Source: Desulfamplus sp. (GTDB lineage: Bacteria > Desulfobacterota > Desulfobacteria > Desulfobacterales > Desulfobacteraceae). From it: a stretch of DNA of 64,000 nucleotides. A program made the translations under genes and the position numbers. Each line of letters begins with the position of its first letter. Positions within the stretch are counted from its first letter, which is position 1. Location of the stretch: positions 1 to 64,000 of the forward strand of contig JADFZO010000007.1 of the NCBI GenBank assembly GCA_015232465.1, written 5' to 3'. This document shows, piece by piece, positions 5,082 through 52,954 of the stretch. Below the pieces are notes generated by a model. That model was not told where the DNA came from and searched no databases. It saw only the letters and a list, made by a program, of their open reading frames with translations.

Positions 5082-6857
5082 ATGATTTTTAATTTTTTCA
5101 AACGAGGCAAAAAGGGCGAAGACTCATTTAATATTGAACTTGAAGATGACAATAAACTCTACTATCAGACAATTGCGGGCAGAACCCCAAGAGATATAAA
5201 TAATAGAGAAGAGTATATTTTATTTATTGACTTTGGCTCATATCGAACCTCTGTTTTGTGCTGGCCCTGTTGTTATGGAAGAGAAAAAATAACCGACACA
5301 TGGAGATATGTTGTCCATTACAAAAATGGTGAAATTGAGGGGGGCGGATTTCCATCAGCTTTTATAAATCCACCATCTGGTGATGAACGTGATTTTGCCT
5401 TTATTGATAACTTTGAGGATATTACAGTTGCAAGTAGTCAGATTGTTAAAAGTGCAAAATCTGTATTTGCAAGTAAATTTGCAGCATACAAGGGGGCTGT
5501 TCCGCAATTTAGGCTCTATATCAAAAAGGTGCTTGAAGAGAGTTTTCAATATATTACAGCCCCAGTTGAGGGGCGACCGTGGAACTCTTCTGCTATCCCT
5601 GTAATTACTGAGATACGTGTTACAGTGCCTGATCTTTTTATCGAAAATTTGCGTGCTGGATACCGTGAAAATATCTACTCTGTCTGCATGGAGTTCTTAA
5701 CACATAAAAAGTGGAAACAGCTTTTTCCCACAAATTTACGAAGCCTTAAAAAGACCTTTATAAATATCTCAGCAGATGAGAGCGGGGCTTGCGAGCTATA
5801 TTTTCTTAATCTTATAAAACTTATGCCGTTTTGGGATTTATCGTCAGAAAAAGATAGGGTACCAGATTTAAAAGAGGTTGAATTTTTATTTTCTCAAAAA
5901 CGTAAGTGCATTGAAAACAATAATCCAAACAGAGATAAAAAAGAGCTAAATTTTGTGGTTTGCCACGTTGATATTGGTGGATTAACAACAGATGCAAGCA
6001 TTCTTTTGATGCGATCTTTTAATGATCACGATCTTGGCATTACAACCACCCTAAAAAGAAAAGAGTCTTTTTCTGAAAAAAAGGCGGGTGAATATTTTGC
6101 AGAGGCATTTAAAGAGATTCGGCACGAAGATGATGAAGATCACTGGTGGGAAAGCGATAGATTTATACAAAAAGAGTTTGGAAAATTTCTTGAACTTCTA
6201 TTTGGCAAGCAGTATGCACTTTTAAACGAATGGAGAAAGGAGAAATCACTTGATGGAATCTATTTTTTAATCTCTGGCAGACCAACAAAAGCACAAAAAA
6301 TAAGGGATATAATATCAAGATATATCCTAAAAGAGTTCAACAAAGAGAGCCTTCTTCTCCTTCCAGAGCACTGTCTATTTATGGCAGACTACTACCATGT
6401 TGGAAAAAATGAGGAGGGGGAGCGGTATGCCAAAAAGATCGAAAATTTTGAAAAGCTCATAACCATTCTTGGCAATGTCTATACACTTTATGATGGGTAT
6501 GAGATCGATTTTGACGAGCATAAATACTATATATCCCTTGATGTTGACACTCGTGGAGTTCAAAGAATGGAGATACTCCCTGGCAGACAGTATAACATGG
6601 AGGATTTTGAAAATTACCAAAAAGCTGCCCAAAGAAACAATGTTTTACACCTTGCCTTTACCCGTATAGCCTCTGGCGAAAACGGCACACGATTTCTTAC
6701 AGTCAAAAAAATTGCCCGCCAAACAGCCTACCCGATTATCAAAATTGCAGATAAGAACGAATTTGATGATCAGGCATGGATCACGCCATCTCTTATAATA
6801 ACCAACCTAAATGATAATGATCAGGCATTTGATTTAGCTTGGGCTTCTCATGTGTAA
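5082..6857 (+). CDS. Actin/Hsp70-fold ATPase-like protein, SrfB-like
   Basis: ILFIDFGSYRTSVL (phosphate 1-like) and CHVDIGGLTTDASILL (phosphate 2-like); start 5082 after GGAGA; ORF extends to 5046. Confidence 0.6.
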   Translation: MIFNFFKRGKKGEDSFNIELEDDNKLYYQTIAGRTPRDINNREEYILFIDFGSYRTSVLCWPCCYGREKITDTWRYVVHYKNGEIEGGGFPSAFINPPSGDERDFAFIDNFEDITVASSQIVKSAKSVFASKFAAYKGAVPQFRLYIKKVLEESFQYITAPVEGRPWNSSAIPVITEIRVTVPDLFIENLRAGYRENIYSVCMEFLTHKKWKQLFPTNLRSLKKTFINISADESGACELYFLNLIKLMPFWDLSSEKDRVPDLKEVEFLFSQKRKCIENNNPNRDKKELNFVVCHVDIGGLTTDASILLMRSFNDHDLGITTTLKRKESFSEKKAGEYFAEAFKEIRHEDDEDHWWESDRFIQKEFGKFLELLFGKQYALLNEWRKEKSLDGIYFLISGRPTKAQKIRDIISRYILKEFNKESLLLLPEHCLFMADYYHVGKNEEGERYAKKIENFEKLITILGNVYTLYDGYEIDFDEHKYYISLDVDTRGVQRMEILPGRQYNMEDFENYQKAAQRNNVLHLAFTRIASGENGTRFLTVKKIARQTAYPIIKIADKNEFDDQAWITPSLIITNLNDNDQAFDLAWASHV

Positions 6858-6969
6858 GTGTAAAATTTCCGATAAACAAATTTTCGTGTAAAAACGATGT
6901 TTCGTTTAAAGATTCAAATTTCTCTTGCAATATCTTTTCGTGTAACTATATATAAGAACAATCATGGCT

Positions 6970-7028
6970 CTATTTTATCTATTTGTTGATTTAAAATATT
7001 TAACAATAACAAATAGATAGCAAAATAG
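6970..7028. repeat. Imperfect inverted repeat CTATTTTATCTATTTGTT / AACAAATAGATAGCAAAATAG
   Basis: 18 of 21 bp arms match, 3-nt bulge, 20-nt loop, upstream of hydrogenase protease gene. Confidence 0.7.
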
Positions 7029-7094
7029 GGTAGAGTTTAATCATATTTAAGTTTACAGTAAAAAAATCTATTTTAAGGAATTTATCGAATTTTT

Positions 7095-7589
7095 ATGGAA
7101 AAATTTATCAAGCCCATTTTAATATTTGGGTGTGGGAATACGCTTTTTGGAGATGATGGGTTTGGACCTGAAGTGGTAGATAGGCTTAACAGTAACTATA
7201 AACTCCCTGAGTATGTTGTTGCAACTGACGCTGGAACAGGTATTCAGGGAGTTTTGTTTGATATTGCCTTATCTTTGGAAAAACCATCAGCTCTGTTTAT
7301 TGTAGATACAGTTCTCTTGCCAGATCGAAGTGCTGGAGAGCTGTTTGAGCTTGATATAAATCAGATACCTGAAAAGAATGTCAGCGAATTTTCTTTGCAC
7401 CAATTCCCCTCTGTTAATCTACTTCAAGAGCTTCAACAAGAGTCTGGTATTCAGGTCAGAGTGTTTGTTGTACAGGCAAAATCTATTCCTGAATATGTAG
7501 AGCCAGGCCTTTCGCAAGAGGTTTATGATGCGATAGAGCCAGCTTGTAAATGGTTGATAGATAACTCTTTAAAGATTAAAAATGGTTAG
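7095..7589 (+). CDS. Hydrogenase maturation endopeptidase (HyaD/HycI/FrhD family)
   Basis: FGCGNTLFGDDGFGPEVV and DAGTGIQG; directly upstream of the hydrogenase locus. Confidence 0.9.
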   Translation: MEKFIKPILIFGCGNTLFGDDGFGPEVVDRLNSNYKLPEYVVATDAGTGIQGVLFDIALSLEKPSALFIVDTVLLPDRSAGELFELDINQIPEKNVSEFSLHQFPSVNLLQELQQESGIQVRVFVVQAKSIPEYVEPGLSQEVYDAIEPACKWLIDNSLKIKNG

Positions 7590-7607
7590 ATTTTAATTAG
7601 TAACTTT

Positions 7608-7631
7608 GTCCTAAGAGTTATTAGGACTTTT
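7608..7631 (+). terminator. Weak terminator/attenuator-like hairpin between protease gene and hdrA
   Basis: GTCCTAA-GAGTTA-TTAGGAC followed by TTTT. Confidence 0.45.
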
Positions 7632-7657
7632 AAGAACGTTTAAAAAGCGAGGTGTAT

Positions 7658-10600
7658 ATGTCAGACAACCCAATCGGATCAGTCATGGTAGTTGGAGGAG
7701 GTATTGTTGGAATACAGGCAACGCTTGATTTAGCAGACTCTGGATACTATGTCTATCTTGTAGAAAAATCTGCCGGAATTGGCGGGGTAATGGCTCAATT
7801 GGATAAGACCTATCCAACGAATGACTGTGCAATGTGAATTTTATCGCCCAAGTTGGTTGAGTGCGGTCGGCACTTAAATGTTGAGCTTCTTACCCTTTCT
7901 GAAATCATTGCTGTCTCAGGCGAAGCAGGTGATTTCACAGTTACAGTAAAAAAGAGTCCTCGTTACATTGATATGGATAAATGTATTGCTTGCGGAATCT
8001 GCACTGAAAAATGCCCAAAAAAAGTTGCTGATGAGTATAATGCTGGAATTAGCAAAAGAAAGGCAGCATACATCAAATATGGTCAAACCGTCCCCCTTAA
8101 ATATGCAATTGACCCTAAAAACTGCATCTACCTTACAAAAGGAAAATGTCAGGCTTGTCAAAAATTTTGCCCCACTGGTGCTATAAATTTTGACGATAAA
8201 GAGGAGATTGTAAAGATCAATGTTGGCTCTGTAATATTATCTCCTGGATTCACTCCATTTGATCCATCAGGACTTGATTTTTACGGATATGGAAAATACC
8301 CAGATGTTATTACAAGCCTTGAGTATGAGCGTCTTTTATCTGCAAGTGGTCCTTGCATGGGTCATGTGGTTAGACCCTCAGATGGTAAAGAGCCAAAAAA
8401 GATAGCATGGATTCAATGCGTTGGCTCAAGAAACACAAACAGAACTGAGAATGGATTTTGCTCAAGCGTATGCTGTATGTATGCAATGAAGCAGACACGC
8501 ATCACAATTGAACATGCTGCTGGCAACGATCAAGATTTATCAATATTTTATATTGATATAAGAAGTCATGGAAAAGAGTTTGAGCGTTACTATAACGAAA
8601 CTATAAATAAAGGCGTTAAATTTATACGAGCACGTCCCCACACAATAAATCCGGGTAAAAACAATATTGGGGTTCAGATGGAGTATCTGACAGAAGATGG
8701 TCAGAAGATTAAAGAGGATTTTGATATGGTTGTCCTCTCAATTGGTCTTGGTGCCCCTAAAGATGCTGGTGATCTCTCCTCTAAATTTGGATTTAATCTA
8801 AATAATTACAGATTTGCAAAGACAACCTGTTTTGAACCTGTAAAAAGCTCTCAACCAGGAGTATTGGTAACTGGAACATTTAGATCATCTAAAGCTATTC
8901 CACGCTCTGTAACTGAGGCATCTGCTGCTGCTGCTGAAGCTGCTATTATGCTTGCTGAATCAAAAAATAGCTTAACAAAAAATAAGGTCTATCCTACTGA
9001 AATAGATGTATCTGACCAAGAGCCAAGAATTGGTGTATTTGTCTGTTCATGCGGCATAAACATTTCTAATGTTGTTAATGTTGCTGAGGTTGTTGAGTAT
9101 GCCAAAACCCTACCTTATGTTGTTTTTACTGAGAACAACCTCTTTACCTGCTCTACTGATACCCAAGTTCTGATTAGCAAAAAAATCCATGAAAATAGAC
9201 TCAACAGAATTGTTGTTGCAGCCTGTTCTCCAAGAACACATGAGCCTCTTTTTCAAGATACTTTAAGAGAAGCTGGTCTTAATGGATTTTTATTTGAGAT
9301 GGCAAACATAAGAAATCACAACTCATGGGTGCACCAGAGCGAGCCTGAAAAGGCAACTATCAAGGCAAAAGATCAGGTTCGTATGGCTGTTGCAAAAGTT
9401 GCTCAAAATTATGCACTCACTCGGCTTAAGGTTGATGTTGTTCAAAAGGCAATGGTTGTTGGAGGCGGTCTATCTGGCATGACAGCAGCATTGGCTTTTG
9501 GAAATCAGGGCTATGAGACAGTTTTGATTGAAAAGGGCGACAAACTTGGTGGTAATGCTTTAGAGCTTCTCCAAACCTATAAAGGCGAAGATATAGGGGA
9601 GCATATTAATAGCATTATAGAAAATGTTGAGAACCATGAGCAGATAACAGTATTGAAAAATACAACTATTAAGAGCTGTTCTGGTTCAGTTGGTAATTTT
9701 ACAAGCGAGATTGTTATAAACGGTTCAAATTCAGGCGATAGTGAGGTAAAAAAGATAGCTTACGGAGTTGGAGTTATTGCCACAGGTGGCAAAGCATCAT
9801 CTACTACTGAATATCTTTTTGGAACAGACGATAGAGTTATGACGCCTCTTAAATTTGATAAGTATCTTAAAAACGACCATAAATCTCTTCAAGATGCTGA
9901 TACTGTTGTATTTATTCAATGCGTTGGTTCTCGTGAGCCTCAGCGTCCATACTGTAGCCGTCTATGCTGCACACACTCTGTTAAAAGTGCTATAATGCTA
10001 AAAGAGATAAATCCTGATCTAAATGTCTATATTTTAAATCGAGATATTAGAACCTATGGTGAACGTGAAGATTTATATAAACAGGCTCGTGATGCTGGCG
10101 TAATTTTTATCAGATATGAGCCAAATAAAAAGCCAAATGTCTATAAAAAAGATAATGACATTGCAGTTGAGATATATGATCCTATTCTAATGAGAAATTT
10201 AAGAATATTCACAGATTATCTTGTGCTTGCAACTGGTGTTGAACCTAATGACGCAAAAGATTTGATGGATATATTTAAATTTGGAGTCAATGAAGATGGA
10301 TTTCTAAACGAGGCTCACCCTAAACTTAGACCTGTTGATATGCCTGTTGATGGTCTATTTGTTGCTGGTCTTTGCAACTATCCAAAGCCGATTGAGGAGT
10401 CTGTAACTCAGGCTTTAGCTTGTGTATCAAGAGCTGGTGTTATCTTGGCAAAACAGTCAATGGAGCTTGATGCCATAAAATCTTATGTAACTGAAAAGTG
10501 TGATGGCTGTGCTGTATGTATAGATGTCTGTCCATACATGGCATTAACACTTGAAGAGTATCAGTTAAATGGTAGTGGAAGGGTAGTAAAACGGATAAAA

Positions 10601-29196: not shown

Positions 29197-31572
29197 TTAA
29201 TATTCGATATTCTCCACAATAACCCTGCGAGGTTTTACCCCATCTGATGGTCCAACAATCCCTCGTTTTTCCATAATATCAATGATTCTTGCAGCTCTAT
29301 TGTATCCAACCCTAAGTGCCCGCTGAATCCCTGAAATAGATGCCTGCTTTGTTGAGATTACAAACTCTAAAGCCTCATTATATTTATCATCATAATCATC
29401 GTCCATAGTCTCTTGGGGAGGCTCTTCATCTGTCTCTGTAATAACATCAAGAACATACTCAGGTCTGCCTTGAGCTTTTAAAAATGATGTTATCTCCAAA
29501 AGCTCGTCCTCTGATAGATATGTCCCATGAACCCTTGTAACTCTTGAGCTACCCGGAGGCACAAATAGCATATCACCATTTCCAAGAAGAGTCTCTGCAC
29601 CATTTGAGTCAATAATTGTTCTGGAGTCAGTCTTAGAAGAGACCTGAAATGATATTCTTGTTGGAAAGTTTGCCTTTATGATGCCAGTTAGAACATCAAC
29701 AGATGGTCTTTGCGTTGCTAAAATAAGATGAATTCCAGCAGCCCTTGCCATCTGAGCAAGACGTGTTAGAGAGAACTCAATGTCTCTTGATGCTGTCATC
29801 ATAAGGTCTGCAAGCTCATCAATTATCACAACAATATAGGGGAGTGGCTCTTGCTCTTCAAAATCTGCAACGTGCTGCCCAACTCCATTTTTTATCTTTT
29901 GATTATACTGCTCAATGTGTCTAACCTGAGATTTAGCAAGAAGGCTGTAACGCCGATCCATCTCCCTTACCAACCACTGAAGTGCAAGCGTGGCTTTTTT
30001 CATGTCAGTTATTACAGGGGTTAAAAGATGCGGAATGTCGTTGTAAAATGAAAGCTCAATCCGTTTAGGATCAACCATCAAAAATTTGACCTCTTCAGGA
30101 GATGATTTATACAAAATACTTGTAATCATCGCATTTAGACCAACGCTTTTACCTGTACCTGTTGCCCCTGCAATTAAAAGATGGGGCATCCTATCAAGCT
30201 CAACAACAACTGGATTGCCAACAATATCCTTACCAAGACAAATTGGCACTTTTGATTTGCTATTTATAAAGTCTTGAGCAGTTACAATATCAATAAATGG
30301 CACAATGCTCTTTTTGATATTTGGAATCTCAATACCCATAACATCTTTACCAGGAATTGGTGCAACAATGCGAATGCTAAAAGCACTTAACGCAAGGGCA
30401 AGATCATCTGCAAGGTTGACTATTTTGCTGATTTTTATTCCGGGTTCTGGTCTATACTCAAACGTAGTGATAACAGGTCCAGGAGAGACCCCCATAACTT
30501 CGCCCTTGATTCCAAAATATCCAAGTTTTTTTTCAAGAAGCTCTGCATCTCTTCTGATGCCGTGGTGATCAATCTCTGTTTTGCTGCTTGTATTTCTAAG
30601 AAAAGATATCTTAGGAAGCTCAAACTCCCCCTTTTTATACATCTTTGGTTTGGCAATGGCTGGCTTATTAATTGTGCTTGGCTTACTACTGATAAGAGCA
30701 TCATATTGATAAGAGTCATCCTCTATCTCATCATCTTGCGATAATATTATTGTTGATAGCTCGTCTGGCTCAACCAATATTGCATCATCTTTAGATACAA
30801 CCGCTATGGCAGACTCAGTAGGTTCAATTAATATTGCCTCCTCTTCTGTTGATGCAACTATTATTTTTTGCTCTGGAGGTTTAAAATTAACCACTGATAT
30901 TGAAAAAGGCGGCTCAACTAATGGTTGTGTTGTTGATATTAATGGTGCTGATGATGACACAGGAATAACAACATCATTGAGATTATTTGACCTATTTTGC
31001 TCCCTAATGCTCATAACTCGCTCTATTGCTTTTTGTTTTAGGGCAAGATATGAGTTATTTAGCTTCCAGTTTGATGTTTCAGACTTTTGGGGTTGGGGAA
31101 GAACTTTATCTATCTTATCTATATTCTCTATATTCTCTTTTTCTTTTTTTTCTTCATTCTCTTTTTCTTCTTCTAAATCATCTGATTCAACATTATACTC
31201 CTTAGAATCAGCTATCTCATTTATAAAGCTCTTCTCTATTGATGGCTCGGTTAGAACAGGAGCGATATTTACAGATTCCAATTTTCTATTTATAGCATCA
31301 ACTCTTTGAGTAAGATTTTTGTACTTATCCTCAAGCCTTACATATTTTTCACAAAGATTTAGATTTGTAAGGAGCAATCTGGCATACTGCCCAGATTTCT
31401 CCTTACGAAAATTTAGCTTTCTATCAACGCTATCCATCTCATTGATCATAATCTTGACGATACGTTCAGCATCGCCAAGAAGCTCAGTGTCCTCTATCTT
31501 AAATGAGTAATGACCAAAGGCTGTTATTATGGTTAATACATCTTTATTTAAATTATAGCTGTAGTTTTTCAC
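29197..31572 (-). CDS. ftsK: FtsK/SpoIIIE-type DNA translocase with ZapA-like N-terminus
   Basis: PHLLIAGATGTGKSVGLNAMITSILY, MVDPKRIELSFYNDIPHLLTPVITD, ILATQRPSVDVLTGIIKANFPTRISF, gamma winged helix; no TM segment in first 350 aa. Confidence 0.93.
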   Translation of the reverse strand: MKNYSYNLNKDVLTIITAFGHYSFKIEDTELLGDAERIVKIMINEMDSVDRKLNFRKEKSGQYARLLLTNLNLCEKYVRLEDKYKNLTQRVDAINRKLESVNIAPVLTEPSIEKSFINEIADSKEYNVESDDLEEEKENEEKKEKENIENIDKIDKVLPQPQKSETSNWKLNNSYLALKQKAIERVMSIREQNRSNNLNDVVIPVSSSAPLISTTQPLVEPPFSISVVNFKPPEQKIIVASTEEEAILIEPTESAIAVVSKDDAILVEPDELSTIILSQDDEIEDDSYQYDALISSKPSTINKPAIAKPKMYKKGEFELPKISFLRNTSSKTEIDHHGIRRDAELLEKKLGYFGIKGEVMGVSPGPVITTFEYRPEPGIKISKIVNLADDLALALSAFSIRIVAPIPGKDVMGIEIPNIKKSIVPFIDIVTAQDFINSKSKVPICLGKDIVGNPVVVELDRMPHLLIAGATGTGKSVGLNAMITSILYKSSPEEVKFLMVDPKRIELSFYNDIPHLLTPVITDMKKATLALQWLVREMDRRYSLLAKSQVRHIEQYNQKIKNGVGQHVADFEEQEPLPYIVVIIDELADLMMTASRDIEFSLTRLAQMARAAGIHLILATQRPSVDVLTGIIKANFPTRISFQVSSKTDSRTIIDSNGAETLLGNGDMLFVPPGSSRVTRVHGTYLSEDELLEITSFLKAQGRPEYVLDVITETDEEPPQETMDDDYDDKYNEALEFVISTKQASISGIQRALRVGYNRAARIIDIMEKRGIVGPSDGVKPRRVIVENIEY

Positions 31573-46938: not shown

Positions 46939-47520
46939 TCAACCCATCTTCATTAGCTTATTATAGGCACCTTGTATCTCAATAAATTTTCTATTTGCAA
47001 GCTCTTGAAGCTCTTTTCCAAGATGGGCAACTTTATCTGGGTGATACTGCTTTACAGCAGCTCTGTATGCTGCATGGATATCCTCTTTGGTTGCATTTGG
47101 CTCAACTCCAAGTATCTGATATGCAGATTGCAAAGGCTCGCTATTTTGCCCTTGATTTTGCTCTGCTTTTCCATCTTTTCTCTTTATCTCCTCTTTGGGT
47201 GGCTCTTTTTTATATCTATTATCTTCTGCCTGATTTTGCTGGGTAGAGTTCTCTGCATCTGATTTTTTTTGTGTAAACTGATAACTTTTTGCTTTCTCTT
47301 TACTTGCTTTTGCTTTACTCCAAAAACCTTTACCTCTACTCTTTTTATAAAAAGCCTCTGGCAGACGACCATGTTTTATGTAATAGATAATAGCTCCAAC
47401 AACAGCAGCATCATCAAACAGTCCAAAATATGGTATAAAAAAATCAGGTATTATATCAATTGGGCTTATAAGATAGGCGGCTGCAACCAATCCAAGCAAT
47501 ATTTTATGGTAGGTAGTCAT
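46939..47520 (-). CDS. DUF1232 (YkvA-like) + DnaJ-domain protein
   Basis: AYLISPIDIIPDFFIPYFGLFDDAAVV and J-domain YQILGVEPNATKEDIHAAYRAAVKQYHPDKV. Confidence 0.88.
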   Translation of the reverse strand: MTTYHKILLGLVAAAYLISPIDIIPDFFIPYFGLFDDAAVVGAIIYYIKHGRLPEAFYKKSRGKGFWSKAKASKEKAKSYQFTQKKSDAENSTQQNQAEDNRYKKEPPKEEIKRKDGKAEQNQGQNSEPLQSAYQILGVEPNATKEDIHAAYRAAVKQYHPDKVAHLGKELQELANRKFIEIQGAYNKLMKMG

Positions 47521-47545
47521 TTTTTACCCATCTAATCCTTTTGCT

Positions 47546-47604
47546 AAATAACGCCAAATTAAACGGCGGTGCTTTTTGCCGTCCGTTTGAATGATTTGTT
47601 AGGC
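47546..47604 (-). repeat. attC-like recombination site (59 bp)
   Basis: Minus strand GCCTAACAAATCATTCAAACGGACGGCAAAAAGCACCGCCGTTTAATTTGGCGTTATTT: R'' GCCTAAC, AAACGG-A-CGG/CCG-CCGTTT stem with one extrahelical base, terminal GTTA; specificity gene stop lies inside R''. Confidence 0.65.
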
Positions 47605-49029
47605 ATTTCTTTGCCCTTGCTTTATAGCCTCTTCAATTATTTTGTTAATTGCTTGTTGTTTTTCTTCTATTTGTCTGTCAATTACTTTTTGCTCGTCAAG
47701 TTGCATTTTAATTTTTGCAACTATTTCGGCTTGTTTGATATCGTCCCAATCTGGAATTGGAAACTCTTTTATTTGACTTGGGAAGATGTTTGTATTGTTT
47801 CCAAGCCCTTTTTTGTGAGTGTAAACCAAGTACTGAAAAAAGTCGCTACGCATATAATAATATGCACACAAAAGGTCAAAGCCTGTTAATCTTATTCTTT
47901 GCGTAAAGTCTGCAAAAATTCCGTTTATTTCTTCGTCTTCAATAATGGCAACTTTTCCGATTGTTCCTTCTCCTGAACGTGCTAAAAGTATGTCCCCTTT
48001 TTTAACTGTCTTGTTTAGGTTACTGGCTGCATAGCTTTCAGAAACCTTTTTACAGTCTTCGGGATCAAATGCCCAAGACTTGATATTTGACATTCCGATA
48101 TAAAAATATTCTCCGTCTTCGTCATAGTCGCTTGGTGAAACACTCTTGCCCAAAACGATAGGTTCGGAAATAAAATCTTTAATTCGCTTGTTTGTTTTGC
48201 TTCCCAAAAAAGATTGAATGTAAGCACCTGCTTTGTTATGAAAGCGAACACCCATACGGCAATCAATGTTGTTTGCAAACTTTGAAATGCTTGAAGTATG
48301 GACTTTTTCTTTTTTTATAGTTTCAAACTCTTCCCAATCAAACCCAAATGCTTCACCGAACACTTGATTGATTATGTTTAATATTTGTTTTTGGGTCGCC
48401 TTTAAATTTGCAATTTCTTGTTTTAAAGGACTAATTTTTTCAATTAGTTCTGATTGTGAATTGATAAGAGCGTCAACTATTGATTTCGGAAAACGAATAG
48501 ATTTTAAATCTTCTTCTTTTAAAGTAGGATAACCTTTGCCCTGCCTTGATACAGCATTTATTTGGCTGATAAATTTCGTTCTAAGTGCTAAAAAGAAAAG
48601 TTCAGAATTTATTTTAGGTCTGATGTGAATAAACGCTTTGGTGAAATACGTTTCTTCATTCTCAATTAGAACATTTTTATTTAGGTATGGCCTGATTTTA
48701 GAAATTAAAACATCACCTGACAAGGGTTTGATAATATCGCCTTTCTCTATCTTTTTAAACAAACTTTCGTTATCTTTTTGTCTATCATCAAATGACAATT
48801 CAACTGGCTCAACTTCACCCAATTTATTCACATTTCTTATTTCAGCATATTTAAATTGTTTAAGTATTGAAATATCAATACTTTGATATGGAACAAAATT
48901 AAACAACTGTCTGTAAGAGTAAAAGTCTTCACTGTTCGTTTCAAAAGATGAAATATACTTGTAATCGTATCGCAAACTTTCTTCTGAACGGAAATCAGAA
49001 AGTTTCTTTTTTTGAATATTTACTCCCAT
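47599..49029 (-). CDS. Restriction-modification specificity subunit (HsdS-like)
   Basis: Two TRD-like halves (GDVLISKIRPYLNKNVLI..., GDILLARSGEGTIGKVAII...) with coiled-coil spacers; overlaps upstream RM gene. Confidence 0.88.
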   Translation of the reverse strand: MGVNIQKKKLSDFRSEESLRYDYKYISSFETNSEDFYSYRQLFNFVPYQSIDISILKQFKYAEIRNVNKLGEVEPVELSFDDRQKDNESLFKKIEKGDIIKPLSGDVLISKIRPYLNKNVLIENEETYFTKAFIHIRPKINSELFFLALRTKFISQINAVSRQGKGYPTLKEEDLKSIRFPKSIVDALINSQSELIEKISPLKQEIANLKATQKQILNIINQVFGEAFGFDWEEFETIKKEKVHTSSISKFANNIDCRMGVRFHNKAGAYIQSFLGSKTNKRIKDFISEPIVLGKSVSPSDYDEDGEYFYIGMSNIKSWAFDPEDCKKVSESYAASNLNKTVKKGDILLARSGEGTIGKVAIIEDEEINGIFADFTQRIRLTGFDLLCAYYYMRSDFFQYLVYTHKKGLGNNTNIFPSQIKEFPIPDWDDIKQAEIVAKIKMQLDEQKVIDRQIEEKQQAINKIIEEAIKQGQRNA

Positions 49030-51821
49030 ACTACGTCTTTCCTAATGTTGTCTAATATGGTTAGTAACTCAGATGTGCGAAGCACAATGTCATCACTTTT
49101 GTAGCGTGATAACACTCCGTTTTTAAAGTGGCTAATCAGTTCAGTATCGGTTCTTTCAGCAAATTCTATTTTCAGTTTGTCGCTTTCGTAGTATTTTATG
49201 AAAATCTCAATTACCTGTGCTTTCTCGGTTTCTGCCTGTTCAATTTTTGTGTTTTGTGTTTCAATGTCTGCATTGAGCTTTTCAGCTTTCTTTTTCAATG
49301 CTTCGGTTTCTTTGCCATCAATTTTTTTATTAACTGCTTCTAATTCCGTTTTTAGTTCTGCCAATTGATCTTTCAAAATCTTGATGTCTTTTTCATAGGT
49401 TTCAATAATTCCTTTGGTGTCAATTGAGTTAGGTGAATACTCAATATCGTAAAGGTCATTTGGCATAGGGTTTTCGCCCCGCTTGGTGCGTTTGTAACCC
49501 ACATTTTCAGCCTCTGCCATAAAAATATCATAGTCCATTTCTTTGGCTACTTCACCAAACACCCACCAAGAGTTGTAAAAGCCAAATACATGAGTTTCCT
49601 TTTCAAATTTTGAAAGGCTGTCAATTTCTTCACTGTATTTGGTTAAAAGCTCTTTTGGGTTTAATGCTTCGTCTTCAGGTGTAATGTAGTCTTTCAGGAA
49701 GCGTTTAATGTTTTCTTTGATATGCTTTAAATCTTCTTTGTTGATTACTTCAACAGCTTCTTTGTCTTCTTTCTCTAAAAGTGTGTTTAGGTCGGTAGTA
49801 AGTTCCTTAACCCAAACAAATTTTTTGCTGGGTTTGGCTTCATTCACAAAGTAGTCGTAATAGCGAACTACACGGGTTTTGAGTTTTGCCCATTCCTTAC
49901 CGTATTTGTCCCAAAGCTCGTTCCATTGCTCAACTTGTTTTTTGGTTTTCTTTTGAGCAAACAAGAGGCTTGTTTTGGTGGAAGTGTAAGGCTCAAAAGT
50001 TACCTGCGGTAAACTTACGATTGCCTTTACATTGAAATACTTGAAAAGAAATAGGCGAATATATTTGTTTTCTGTTGTGTCAAAAACGCTTTCAGGAAGG
50101 ACAACACCCAAACGACCGCCTTCTTTCAAAAGCTGGTAATATCGTTCAATAAACAAGTTTTCAGAGTTCTTTTTCTCGCCAAATACAAAAGCGTTTTTTA
50201 CTTCTCTTTGGGTTTGAGTGTCCAAATCAACACTAAAAGGAGGATTACTTACAGCAACATCAAATTTTGCGTTTACTTCTTTGTCACTGTATAGCGATTC
50301 TATGGTAGCTGTTTCTAAATAGTTGGGTGATGTTTCTTTTACATAATTTCTGAATGGAAGAAGCCCATCTTTTATAAAAATATTTGTTGAACCATCACCA
50401 TGTAAAATCATATTTACCTTTGCAGAAATACCTAAATCTGTGTTAATTTCACAAGCATAGAGGTAATCTTTTGCCCATCTATGTTCCTTATTTTTTTCAT
50501 CAGGCTTACCGAACAAATCTTCAAACTTATCTTTGATTTGTCTGCTTGACTTTACTCGATGCACTTGTTTATACTTTAATTCTTTCGTTATTATTTTCAT
50601 AGCCTGAACTATATATGTTACACTTCCTGCCGAGGGGTCAATGACGAACGGCAATTCTCTATCATTGTTCAGTCGATCAATTGCCAAATTGTCAAGTTGC
50701 AAAGCATAAAGCAAAAAGTTTACAATTGGAGTAGGGGTAAAAAATTGCCCTTTGTTTTGCTTGAAACCGTCTCTTGTAATGCTTTCAAAGAAATCACCCA
50801 AAATATCTTTACCGTCCAATGAACTACGACCTTCCAAAAAAGAAAAGTTCTCTAAGGATTGAACTGTGTAAATGAGTTTGTTAAGTGGAAATTTGTTCCT
50901 GTTGATTACATTGTCATCATCAATTTTTTGTTGTTCCGATACGTTGAGTTGTTCCTTTAAAGCTCTTTTGTAAAGCTGATTTATTCTGTCGTAAACTTTT
51001 TCAGATGCTTCAATATGGCTTCCATATTGGTAAACCTGAAAATCGTATTCTTGTCCGTCTTCTTTTTCGTATTCGTCCTGAATTTTAGCAAGAATGATGT
51101 TTACAAGAGAATAGAAAATTTCACTGTCATTTGTTCCGCCACCGCCCCAAAGCACATTATGCAGGTTTCTGCCCAAACCTTCAATTTCTTCACGATTGAT
51201 TTTTGTTCTTAAATCGTATTTTTCGTGTCCTTTGATTAAAGGTTGTTTCTTGGGTTCTCCGTAACCTGCGGTTATTTCTGTTCCAATGGAAATAAAGCCG
51301 TCATTTTCCCAATCCGTGTAATTTCGGTATTTCTCAAAATCAATGATGATTGCCTTGTCTAAAATACCTTCGTCTTGCAGGTCGGCAGTGTAGTAAACCA
51401 AATATTTTACTTTGGTCTTAAAGTCTTTTTCTTCAGTTTGTGCTAATGAAAAAAGTTGCCCTTCGATTTTTTCTTTGTCTTTCTCAAACTTGTCGGGTGC
51501 TTTAGCTTCAATAAAAAAGAAAGGATTCCCCTTGTCGTCTTTTACAATGATGTCAATTCTTGGTAAAAGTTTTCCGTGTCCTGCTTTTACGGAATATTCT
51601 TTTTCAATTTCAATGTTCTCAGGCTTGTAGTCAAGTTCGTTGATTAATCGGTCAATAAGAAATGCTCTTACAATTTCTTCCTCGCCTGTCAGCGATTTTA
51701 AAACTCTATTTTGTTTAATTTTTTCGGAATACTGAACAGTTGCTTTATCAAGGTTGATTTTTGCAACACTATTTTTCTCTATTGTCAGTTTTTGCTCAAC
51801 GACTTTCTTCAATTCATTCAT
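49020..51821 (-). CDS. Fused restriction nuclease-N6-adenine DNA methyltransferase
   Basis: N-terminal PRIDIIVKDDKGNPFFFIEAKAP (PD-(D/E)xK), MTase motifs VIDPSAGSVTYIVQAM and FDVAVSNPPFSVD; C-terminal coiled coil; no HsdR helicase gene. Confidence 0.85.
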   Translation of the reverse strand: MNELKKVVEQKLTIEKNSVAKINLDKATVQYSEKIKQNRVLKSLTGEEEIVRAFLIDRLINELDYKPENIEIEKEYSVKAGHGKLLPRIDIIVKDDKGNPFFFIEAKAPDKFEKDKEKIEGQLFSLAQTEEKDFKTKVKYLVYYTADLQDEGILDKAIIIDFEKYRNYTDWENDGFISIGTEITAGYGEPKKQPLIKGHEKYDLRTKINREEIEGLGRNLHNVLWGGGGTNDSEIFYSLVNIILAKIQDEYEKEDGQEYDFQVYQYGSHIEASEKVYDRINQLYKRALKEQLNVSEQQKIDDDNVINRNKFPLNKLIYTVQSLENFSFLEGRSSLDGKDILGDFFESITRDGFKQNKGQFFTPTPIVNFLLYALQLDNLAIDRLNNDRELPFVIDPSAGSVTYIVQAMKIITKELKYKQVHRVKSSRQIKDKFEDLFGKPDEKNKEHRWAKDYLYACEINTDLGISAKVNMILHGDGSTNIFIKDGLLPFRNYVKETSPNYLETATIESLYSDKEVNAKFDVAVSNPPFSVDLDTQTQREVKNAFVFGEKKNSENLFIERYYQLLKEGGRLGVVLPESVFDTTENKYIRLFLFKYFNVKAIVSLPQVTFEPYTSTKTSLLFAQKKTKKQVEQWNELWDKYGKEWAKLKTRVVRYYDYFVNEAKPSKKFVWVKELTTDLNTLLEKEDKEAVEVINKEDLKHIKENIKRFLKDYITPEDEALNPKELLTKYSEEIDSLSKFEKETHVFGFYNSWWVFGEVAKEMDYDIFMAEAENVGYKRTKRGENPMPNDLYDIEYSPNSIDTKGIIETYEKDIKILKDQLAELKTELEAVNKKIDGKETEALKKKAEKLNADIETQNTKIEQAETEKAQVIEIFIKYYESDKLKIEFAERTDTELISHFKNGVLSRYKSDDIVLRTSELLTILDNIRKDVVWE

Positions 51822-51895
51822 TTATATTCAAAATCCCTAAAAATAAAAATTATCGAGTGCTTTTCTTTTCCAATGCTTGATCTGATTCCTAACCC

Positions 51896-52954
51896 CTAAA
51901 TAACACCAAGATCAATAGCCTTTATAACCTGTTTTGCCTCTTTAAAGCTGCTATCTATCTCAACAGCCTTTTGAAAAAGCTCTCTTGCCTTGTCTGTATT
52001 TTTCATATCCAAATAGATTCTTCCCATATTGTAATAGATATTTGGCTCGTCAGGGTGAATTTTTAATGCCTTGTTGTAGTGAATTAAAGCTGTATTGTGA
52101 TCACCTCGTTTTCGATAGATAACACCAAGTGAGTTAAAAACATTAAGAGATTCAGAGCCAAGTGCCAATATCTCATTTAAAATCTCCTCAGCATGTCCAT
52201 CATTATCCCTCTCAAGATGTATCTGGGCTGCATAGCTTAAACACTCGTCAGCTTTATCATTTTGCCCCAATGCACGATACGCTTTGCCCATCTCTTCGTA
52301 CGCTTTGGCAAATAACCTATCAAGCTGAGTTGCCTTTCTAAATGCAACAATAGCTTCAGAATGTTTTCCCTGAATACTCTTTATATATCCAATGTTGTAG
52401 TAATATTCAGGATTCTCCTTCTGGTTGACCATTGATTTGAACTCATTTATCGCCTCATCATATTTTCCTTTGCTAATAAGATCAGAGCCTTTGCTAATCT
52501 GCTTTTCAGCATTACCCACAACTATGGCTTTGGGTTTTCCAAGTGTAGATGTGATTTTATCTTTAAGGGTCTGTATGGTGCAGGGCATAACAATAAGACC
52601 GCTTACACCTGAATGACCAGCTTTTAGCACTTTAAGGGTTGTAAATGCTGGGTCTGTTAGAAAAAATGGGGTATCAGCATATTTATCTTTTTTTCTCATC
52701 ACCCTTAAAAAACTAAGCCCTTTAACCTTTTGTGTATCATAAGCACATATTACACAATTAATCTCTTTTTTTCCTGTAATAAGAATAGCTTGCTCATCTG
52801 TTTGGGTCGCTATTGTGTCTAAAAATCCAAGTTTTTGGATAGCTTTTGTCAACCCTGCTAACATTCTTGGATCATCATTAACAATAAGTATGCTGTTTTG
52901 TTGATTTGAGTTCTCAACAGAAGATGTCATAGAGTTTGATTCAGATGGCATCAA
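51896..52954 (-). CDS. Response-regulator receiver-like + TPR protein
   Basis: SILIVNDDPRMLAGLTKAIQKLG; repeated TPRs, e.g. ALIHYNKALKIHPDEPNIYYNMGRIYLDM. Confidence 0.8.
   Translation of the reverse strand: MMPSESNSMTSSVENSNQQNSILIVNDDPRMLAGLTKAIQKLGFLDTIATQTDEQAILITGKKEINCVICAYDTQKVKGLSFLRVMRKKDKYADTPFFLTDPAFTTLKVLKAGHSGVSGLIVMPCTIQTLKDKITSTLGKPKAIVVGNAEKQISKGSDLISKGKYDEAINEFKSMVNQKENPEYYYNIGYIKSIQGKHSEAIVAFRKATQLDRLFAKAYEEMGKAYRALGQNDKADECLSYAAQIHLERDNDGHAEEILNEILALGSESLNVFNSLGVIYRKRGDHNTALIHYNKALKIHPDEPNIYYNMGRIYLDMKNTDKARELFQKAVEIDSSFKEAKQVIKAIDLGVI

Follow-up and report, generated by a model that had tools for sequence, protein, structure and literature searches.

In this work we ask how a two-gene restriction-modification (R-M) operon came to lie between two host genes of Desulfamplus sp., and whether the attC-like sequence at its 3' end marks it as a gene cassette of an integron. 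The analysis covers a 64-kb stretch of one contig, referred to here as the window, from a 3.0-Mb genome that is about 86% complete. An earlier note on this DNA had proposed that the operon is packaged as a cassette recombined into a secondary GTT site. We put a probability of about 0.8 on the reading that the unit is an integron gene cassette, complete and of unusual size (~4.34 kb), which combines a BsaXI-type operon with a canonical 59-bp attC site and lies outside any integron.

The operon and its attC site

All four genes of the interval 46939-52954 are carried on the minus strand. In reading direction they encode a protein with receiver and TPR domains (51896..52954), an RM fusion (49020..51821, 933 aa), a specificity subunit, S (47599..49029, 476 aa), and a protein with DUF1232 and DnaJ domains (46939..47520), the outer two being host genes characterized through Pfam. 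With regard to descent, the inner two bear out the claim of a two-gene R-M system. RM, in which Pfam recognizes HSDR_N_2 and N6_Mtase, matches RM.BsaXI (Type IIB; PDB 8w0p chain A) along its whole length (1431 bits, E 0) and is 79% identical to it over 609 aligned residues (4-615). It joins a PD-(D/E)XK nuclease, with E105 and K107 kept, to an N6-adenine methyltransferase, while the separate, two-domain S, assigned to Specificity_I by PADLOC, matches S.BsaXI (8w0p chain C) at E 5.8e-74. The arrangement is that of the BsaXI system (PMC9159934, PMC11997821), with proteins of 933 and 476 aa here compared to 916 and 476 aa. The predicted enzyme would be an (RM)2S complex, in which recognition of a bipartite site would fall to S, marking of the host DNA to the methyltransferase, and cleavage on either side of the site to the nuclease.

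The system differs from BsaXI in being carried as an attC cassette, a context for which the text of PMC11997821 does not use the term 'integron', as well as in both of its proteins. The two halves of S have diverged unequally, the first (TRD1) being 54% and the second 26% identical to S.BsaXI. A duplication of TRD1 in BsaXI reads AC N5 GT (PMC9159934), and by analogy the first half-site recognized here is probably AC, while the second, given that this half of S is only 26% identical, probably differs from that of BsaXI. In RM, methyltransferase motif I reads DPSAGSV rather than the DPSAGSG of BsaXI and six relatives, with V401 in place of an invariant glycine. As judged from the residues, this SAM-binding motif, which bears on activity rather than on descent, is not intact, and because its invariant glycine is gone the function of the methyltransferase is doubtful. 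Private substitutions of RM are clustered, 16 of 32 falling in residues 378-512 (p 2e-6), an excess that is absent in four of five relatives and mild in the fifth. Methylation needs SAM and cleavage needs a divalent metal (PMC11997821), so that the host should suffer if the nuclease were active and the methyltransferase dead. The change may be tolerated by the methyltransferase, or else the system may be silent or decaying; V401 could also be a sequencing error in this metagenome-type assembly. We therefore use the name BsaXI-type in the sense of descent and make no claim to a working R-M system. A promoter scan between the TPR gene and RM revealed no promoter-like site and no excess over shuffled sequences, which suggests that the R-M genes are probably transcribed by read-through from the host genes.

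The attC site, 59 bp in length, occupies 47546..47604 of the minus strand (GCCTAACAAATCATTCAAACGGACGGCAAAAAGCACCGCCGTTTAATTTGGCGTTATTT) and is delimited by R'' GCCTAAC (47598-47604) and R' GTTATTT (47546-47552), the outer bases of the latter being host sequence. Its stem, TTCAAACGG-A-CGG / CCG-CCGTTTAA, leaves two bases, C and A, outside the helix, the canonical number, at the positions where an alignment places those of aadA-type sites, whose layout is followed throughout (GCCTAACAA.TC.TTCAA...GAC...TTTAAT...GGCGTTA). The stop codon TAA of S sits within R'', with the attC starting inside that codon, as the earlier note had described.

For detection, a regular-expression search proved too strict and was superseded by a covariance model (R1), which was used because BLAST of the attC against plasmids and E. 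coli returned chance-level pieces or nothing. The 12 attC sites on which the model was trained, the window's own being excluded, came from resistance plasmids (seven), another genome of the order (two), an integron of the same genus (one) and a cyanobacterial plasmid (two). The attC is the sole match in the window up to E 10 (36.8 bits, E 1.9e-8) and ranks first of three matches in its own 3.0-Mb genome (E 9.1e-7, the others having E 0.0016 and 0.10), in both cases far above background. In folding energy alone the site is weak (z -1.3 and -1.1); since energy-only folding is not significant, the signal lies in the attC pattern rather than in the strength of the stem. The weaker attC-like sites elsewhere in the genome are found at 5491-5576 of contig C87 (L115) and 5872-5968 of contig C140 (L116), one of them between two LamG-domain genes.

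The unit thus carries at the 3' end of its genes an attC with R'' and R' cores and extrahelical bases, as is characteristic of an integron cassette, and it is solitary, with a single attC in 64 kb and no integrase in the neighbourhood. The window as a whole is devoid of integrase genes, in agreement with the earlier note, and an Rfam scan of it identified one tRNA and nothing else.

Ends of the unit and possible routes of insertion

At the 5' end of the unit, the sequence GTTAGGA (51887..51893, minus strand; TCCTAAC on the plus strand), which had been pointed out as a possible alternative junction, is the candidate 5' core. Set against the complement of R'' GCCTAAC it agrees at 6/7 positions, and it is the sole GTTRR sequence to reach at least 6/7 within 5 kb upstream; compared to the GTTRRRY consensus, its last base is not Y. 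With this core as R', the proposed cassette extends over 47552..51892 of the minus strand, 4341 bp from G|TTAGGA (5' end, 51892) to ...GGCG| (3' end, 47552).

A direct repeat suggests a different end. The 9-mer CTAAATAAC occurs exactly at 47544-47552 and 51896-51904, as had been noted, and these are its only two plus-strand copies in the window, a third lying on the opposite strand at 31054. It forms part of a longer repeat of 14 bp, of which 13 are identical (CTAAATAAC[G/A]CCAA, 47544-47557 and 51896-51909), and the chance that a 9-mer taken at a GTT recurs in a random 50-bp stretch is ~7e-4. The right copy, TTGGCGTTATTTAG (47544..47557, minus strand), spans the attC crossover point and enters the host at G|TT, with TTGGCG belonging to the attC and TTATTTAG to the host, so that the right end of the unit reads GGCG|TTATTTAGC. 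The left copy, TTGGTGTTATTTAG (51896..51909, minus strand), coincides with the last bases of the TPR gene, its stop codon TAG among them. In another genome of the genus (G001) the orthologous TPR gene ends in the same GGTGTTATTTAGC, as would be expected of an uninserted site.

The position of the left crossover is consequently ambiguous. A crossover at GGGG|TTAGGA would give the cassette a proper 5' core, yet require that the repeat predate the insertion, and the 13/14 match, which simple insertion at this point does not predict, counts against a cassette placed by an integron integrase (IntI). A crossover at GGTG|TTATTTAG would account for the repeat and leave the 5' core unexplained, extending the cassette to a 5' end at 51903 (4352 bp). 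These alternatives predict different uninserted alleles, GGTGTTATTTAGCAAAAGG if the crossover was at GGTG|TT with a true duplication and GTTATTTAGGGGTTATTTAGCAAAAGG if it was at GGGG|TTAGGA. The empty site that would support insertion at a secondary GTT was sought by reading the neighbourhoods of orthologues, and in no relative are the TPR and DnaJ-like genes adjacent; there, a dihydrodipicolinate-reductase-like gene precedes the DnaJ-like gene in place of the TPR gene. Of the insertion originally proposed, the attC and the G|TT right end stand, while the lack of an intact empty site among the relatives counts against it.

The same repeat lends itself to a Campbell-type integration, in which a circle bearing TTGGCGTTATTTAG recombined with TTGGTGTTATTTAG in the host, a 14-bp near-identical site that closes the TPR gene. 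Such an event would restore the TPR gene, leave direct repeats and carry the attC along, with no need of IntI for the crossover. It would explain why the unit is surrounded by a 13/14 repeat whose left copy is a gene end with its stop codon, a repeat of which even the 9-mer is improbable by chance, and why the right copy covers the attC crossover point. Several observations nevertheless make it unlikely. The unit carries no integrase gene of its own. The R' of the presumed circle, GTTATTT, pairs poorly with R'' GCCTAAC, whereas GTTAGGA, 11 bp further in, pairs at 6/7 positions, and two homologous cassettes, in Anabaena and Leptolyngbya, begin with a core of this kind. Nor do 34 further attC sites in the genus show a repeat of this length, the longest upstream repeat among them being 8 bp; this also led us to reject direct repeats as a general trait of dispersed cassettes. 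An uninserted allele that already reads GTTATTTAGGGGTTATTTAGC would contradict Campbell-type integration.

Far less probable is the insertion of the operon by a transposon or illegitimate recombination, with the attC as an incidental passenger. Repeats of 9 bp are typical of the target-site duplications of some transposons, and some relatives of RM are found without an attC; however, terminal inverted repeats are absent (the longest outer match is 4 bp), the genes of the unit include no transposase, and its right end coincides with the attC crossover. With neither inverted repeats nor a transposase, we rejected a transposon as the vehicle. It is similarly improbable that the unit is left over from a larger, decayed cassette array, an integron that has lost its integrase. 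The genus is rich in dispersed attC sites, some of which form short arrays, but here a single attC is present in 64 kb, and both neighbours are host genes. The TPR gene, whose start overlaps the gene before it, has orthologues at 74-89% identity in seven same-genus genomes, and genes of the DUF1232-DnaJ type are present across the family. That an attC-like sequence arose by chance next to an ordinary R-M system of the chromosome, as the weak folding z-scores might suggest, is refuted at the level tested (E 1.9e-8), and the genome's best score, the exact placement at the S stop codon and a 5' core that matches R'' leave it a negligible probability.

Under the preferred reading of a cassette inserted by an integron integrase, we infer that the unit was acquired by horizontal transfer out of a pool of cassettes. 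Most likely, an integrase encoded elsewhere in the cell would have joined the folded bottom strand of the attC to a double-stranded G|TT site of the attG type in the last bases of the TPR gene. The stop codon of that gene would have been retained, rendering the insertion harmless, and the cassette would follow the reading direction of the host genes behind which it came to lie.

Integrases, attC sites and relatives of the operon

The earlier note had called for a search of the genome for IntI and further attC sites, and both were identified in the genome and the genus. Integrase genes above the TIGR02249 cut-off are present in the Desulfamplus genome itself, on contig C3, and in six of nine other genomes of the genus. 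The genome's own copy (L071, C3, 142-1104), on a different contig from the window, carries an in-frame TAA. This counts against the preferred reading, under which the integrase at work must have been a different one or an intact predecessor of this copy; intact integrases do exist in same-genus genomes. This copy is 99.77% identical over 2614 bp to one in genome G005 (L075, contig C163). The TPR orthologues of the two species are ~81% identical, and the near-identity of IntI may reflect a recent transfer or a misassigned contig.

R-M genes are among the cargo of integrons in the genus. In G005 an intact integrase is followed by an AccI-like R-M system with its own attC as first cassette (L074, contig C77, 11742-14393), and a second array (L075, contig C163, 2794-8899) contains a TraB-family gene, a fusion of N6-methyltransferase and specificity domains, and an MjaI-like R-M system. 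The first of these arrays continues beyond the AccI-like system with PIN-type genes and long attC sites. Across ten genomes the covariance model returned 70 attC matches at E <= 0.05, many of them widely separated and some in short arrays. On the basis of these integrases, R-M-bearing arrays and attC matches, the movement of cassettes, R-M cargo included, is common in this genus. Dispersed matches number 24 in G008 and 17 in G001, spread over many contigs, and the same 15-mer, GTTATATGAAGCCTT, follows three of the G001 sites.

The operon itself is sporadic in its distribution. The possibility that the same R-M genes occupy this locus in all relatives, raised as an objection to the insertion of a cassette, finds no support, as a close relative of RM is present in none of the nine other genomes of the genus and, at E <= 1e-200, in no genome but the window's own among 395 of the phylum. 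RM relatives at 76-89% identity were found instead in other phyla, in Ignavibacteria, Anabaena, Kaistella, Alteromonas, Melainabacteria and Leptolyngbya. The S of the melainabacterial system (L069) is 88% identical to that of the window, and the two should, to judge by this similarity, share their specificity. In a search of plasmids, S had no match, and RM relatives among the matches listed were below 40% identity.

Two of these operons, in Anabaena (L066) and Leptolyngbya (L070), start with GTTAAGT or GTTAGGC and end in an attC that overlaps the S stop codon. In the 238 kb searched, the attC sites themselves score low (16.2 bits, E 0.07, and 13.0 bits, E 0.64) but are in the expected place; both operons look like single attC cassettes as well. 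The covariance model found no attC at four of the six relatives, which indicates that the operon also moves without one. The Leptolyngbya attC resembles that of an integron on a Kovacikia plasmid. This plasmid, pB of Kovacikia minuta (L094), carries the integron at 6702-8651, with a first cassette annotated as DNA cytosine methyltransferase. The Leptolyngbya RM homologue (L070) is broken at 6880-8280 by a foreign stretch of ~1.4 kb that has an ORF on the opposite strand.

Relation to known cassettes and implications

Both cassettes at attG sites and cassettes that encode defence systems have already been published, and the present unit, a 4.3-kb full-length BsaXI-type cassette, is large for its kind. 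The insertion of cassettes at attG sites was described by Loot et al. 2024 (Nat Microbiol 9:228-240; cited in PMC12901181 and PMC12690207). The unit resembles these in being a single attC cassette, probably at a chromosomal G|TT, away from any attI, and differs in its 13/14-bp end repeat, in being a natural two-gene R-M system of 4.3 kb and in having been read from sequence alone. According to the summary in PMC12409362 (Darracq, Littner et al.; Kieffer et al. 2025), phage-defence cassettes occur in integrons, in which defence systems, type II and IV restriction genes included, are streamlined to small size. With the cassettes so summarized the unit shares a defence operon with its own attC; it differs in being full length (~4.3 kb) and outside an integron. 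The unit also recalls a SALIN (single attC lacking integrase; a term used in PMC12690207), with one attC in 64 kb and no integrase nearby, except that another contig of its genome bears an integrase gene, itself broken by an in-frame stop.

More tentatively, at somewhat less than even odds, BsaXI-type systems may travel from phylum to phylum as solitary attC cassettes of full length and become established behind host genes outside integrons, a process that would be routine in this genus, with its dispersed attC sites, R-M arrays and seeding of defence genes. The locus would represent a natural example of a complete two-gene defence operon that exceeds the streamlined defence cassettes of integrons in size and that landed, as one cassette, outside an integron and behind a host gene. 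Taken with two similar cyanobacterial cases and the dozens of attC sites dispersed through the genus, it makes the share of integron integrases in the spread of R-M systems testable, and would set these enzymes beside transposons and conjugative elements as distributors of R-M systems over bacterial chromosomes.
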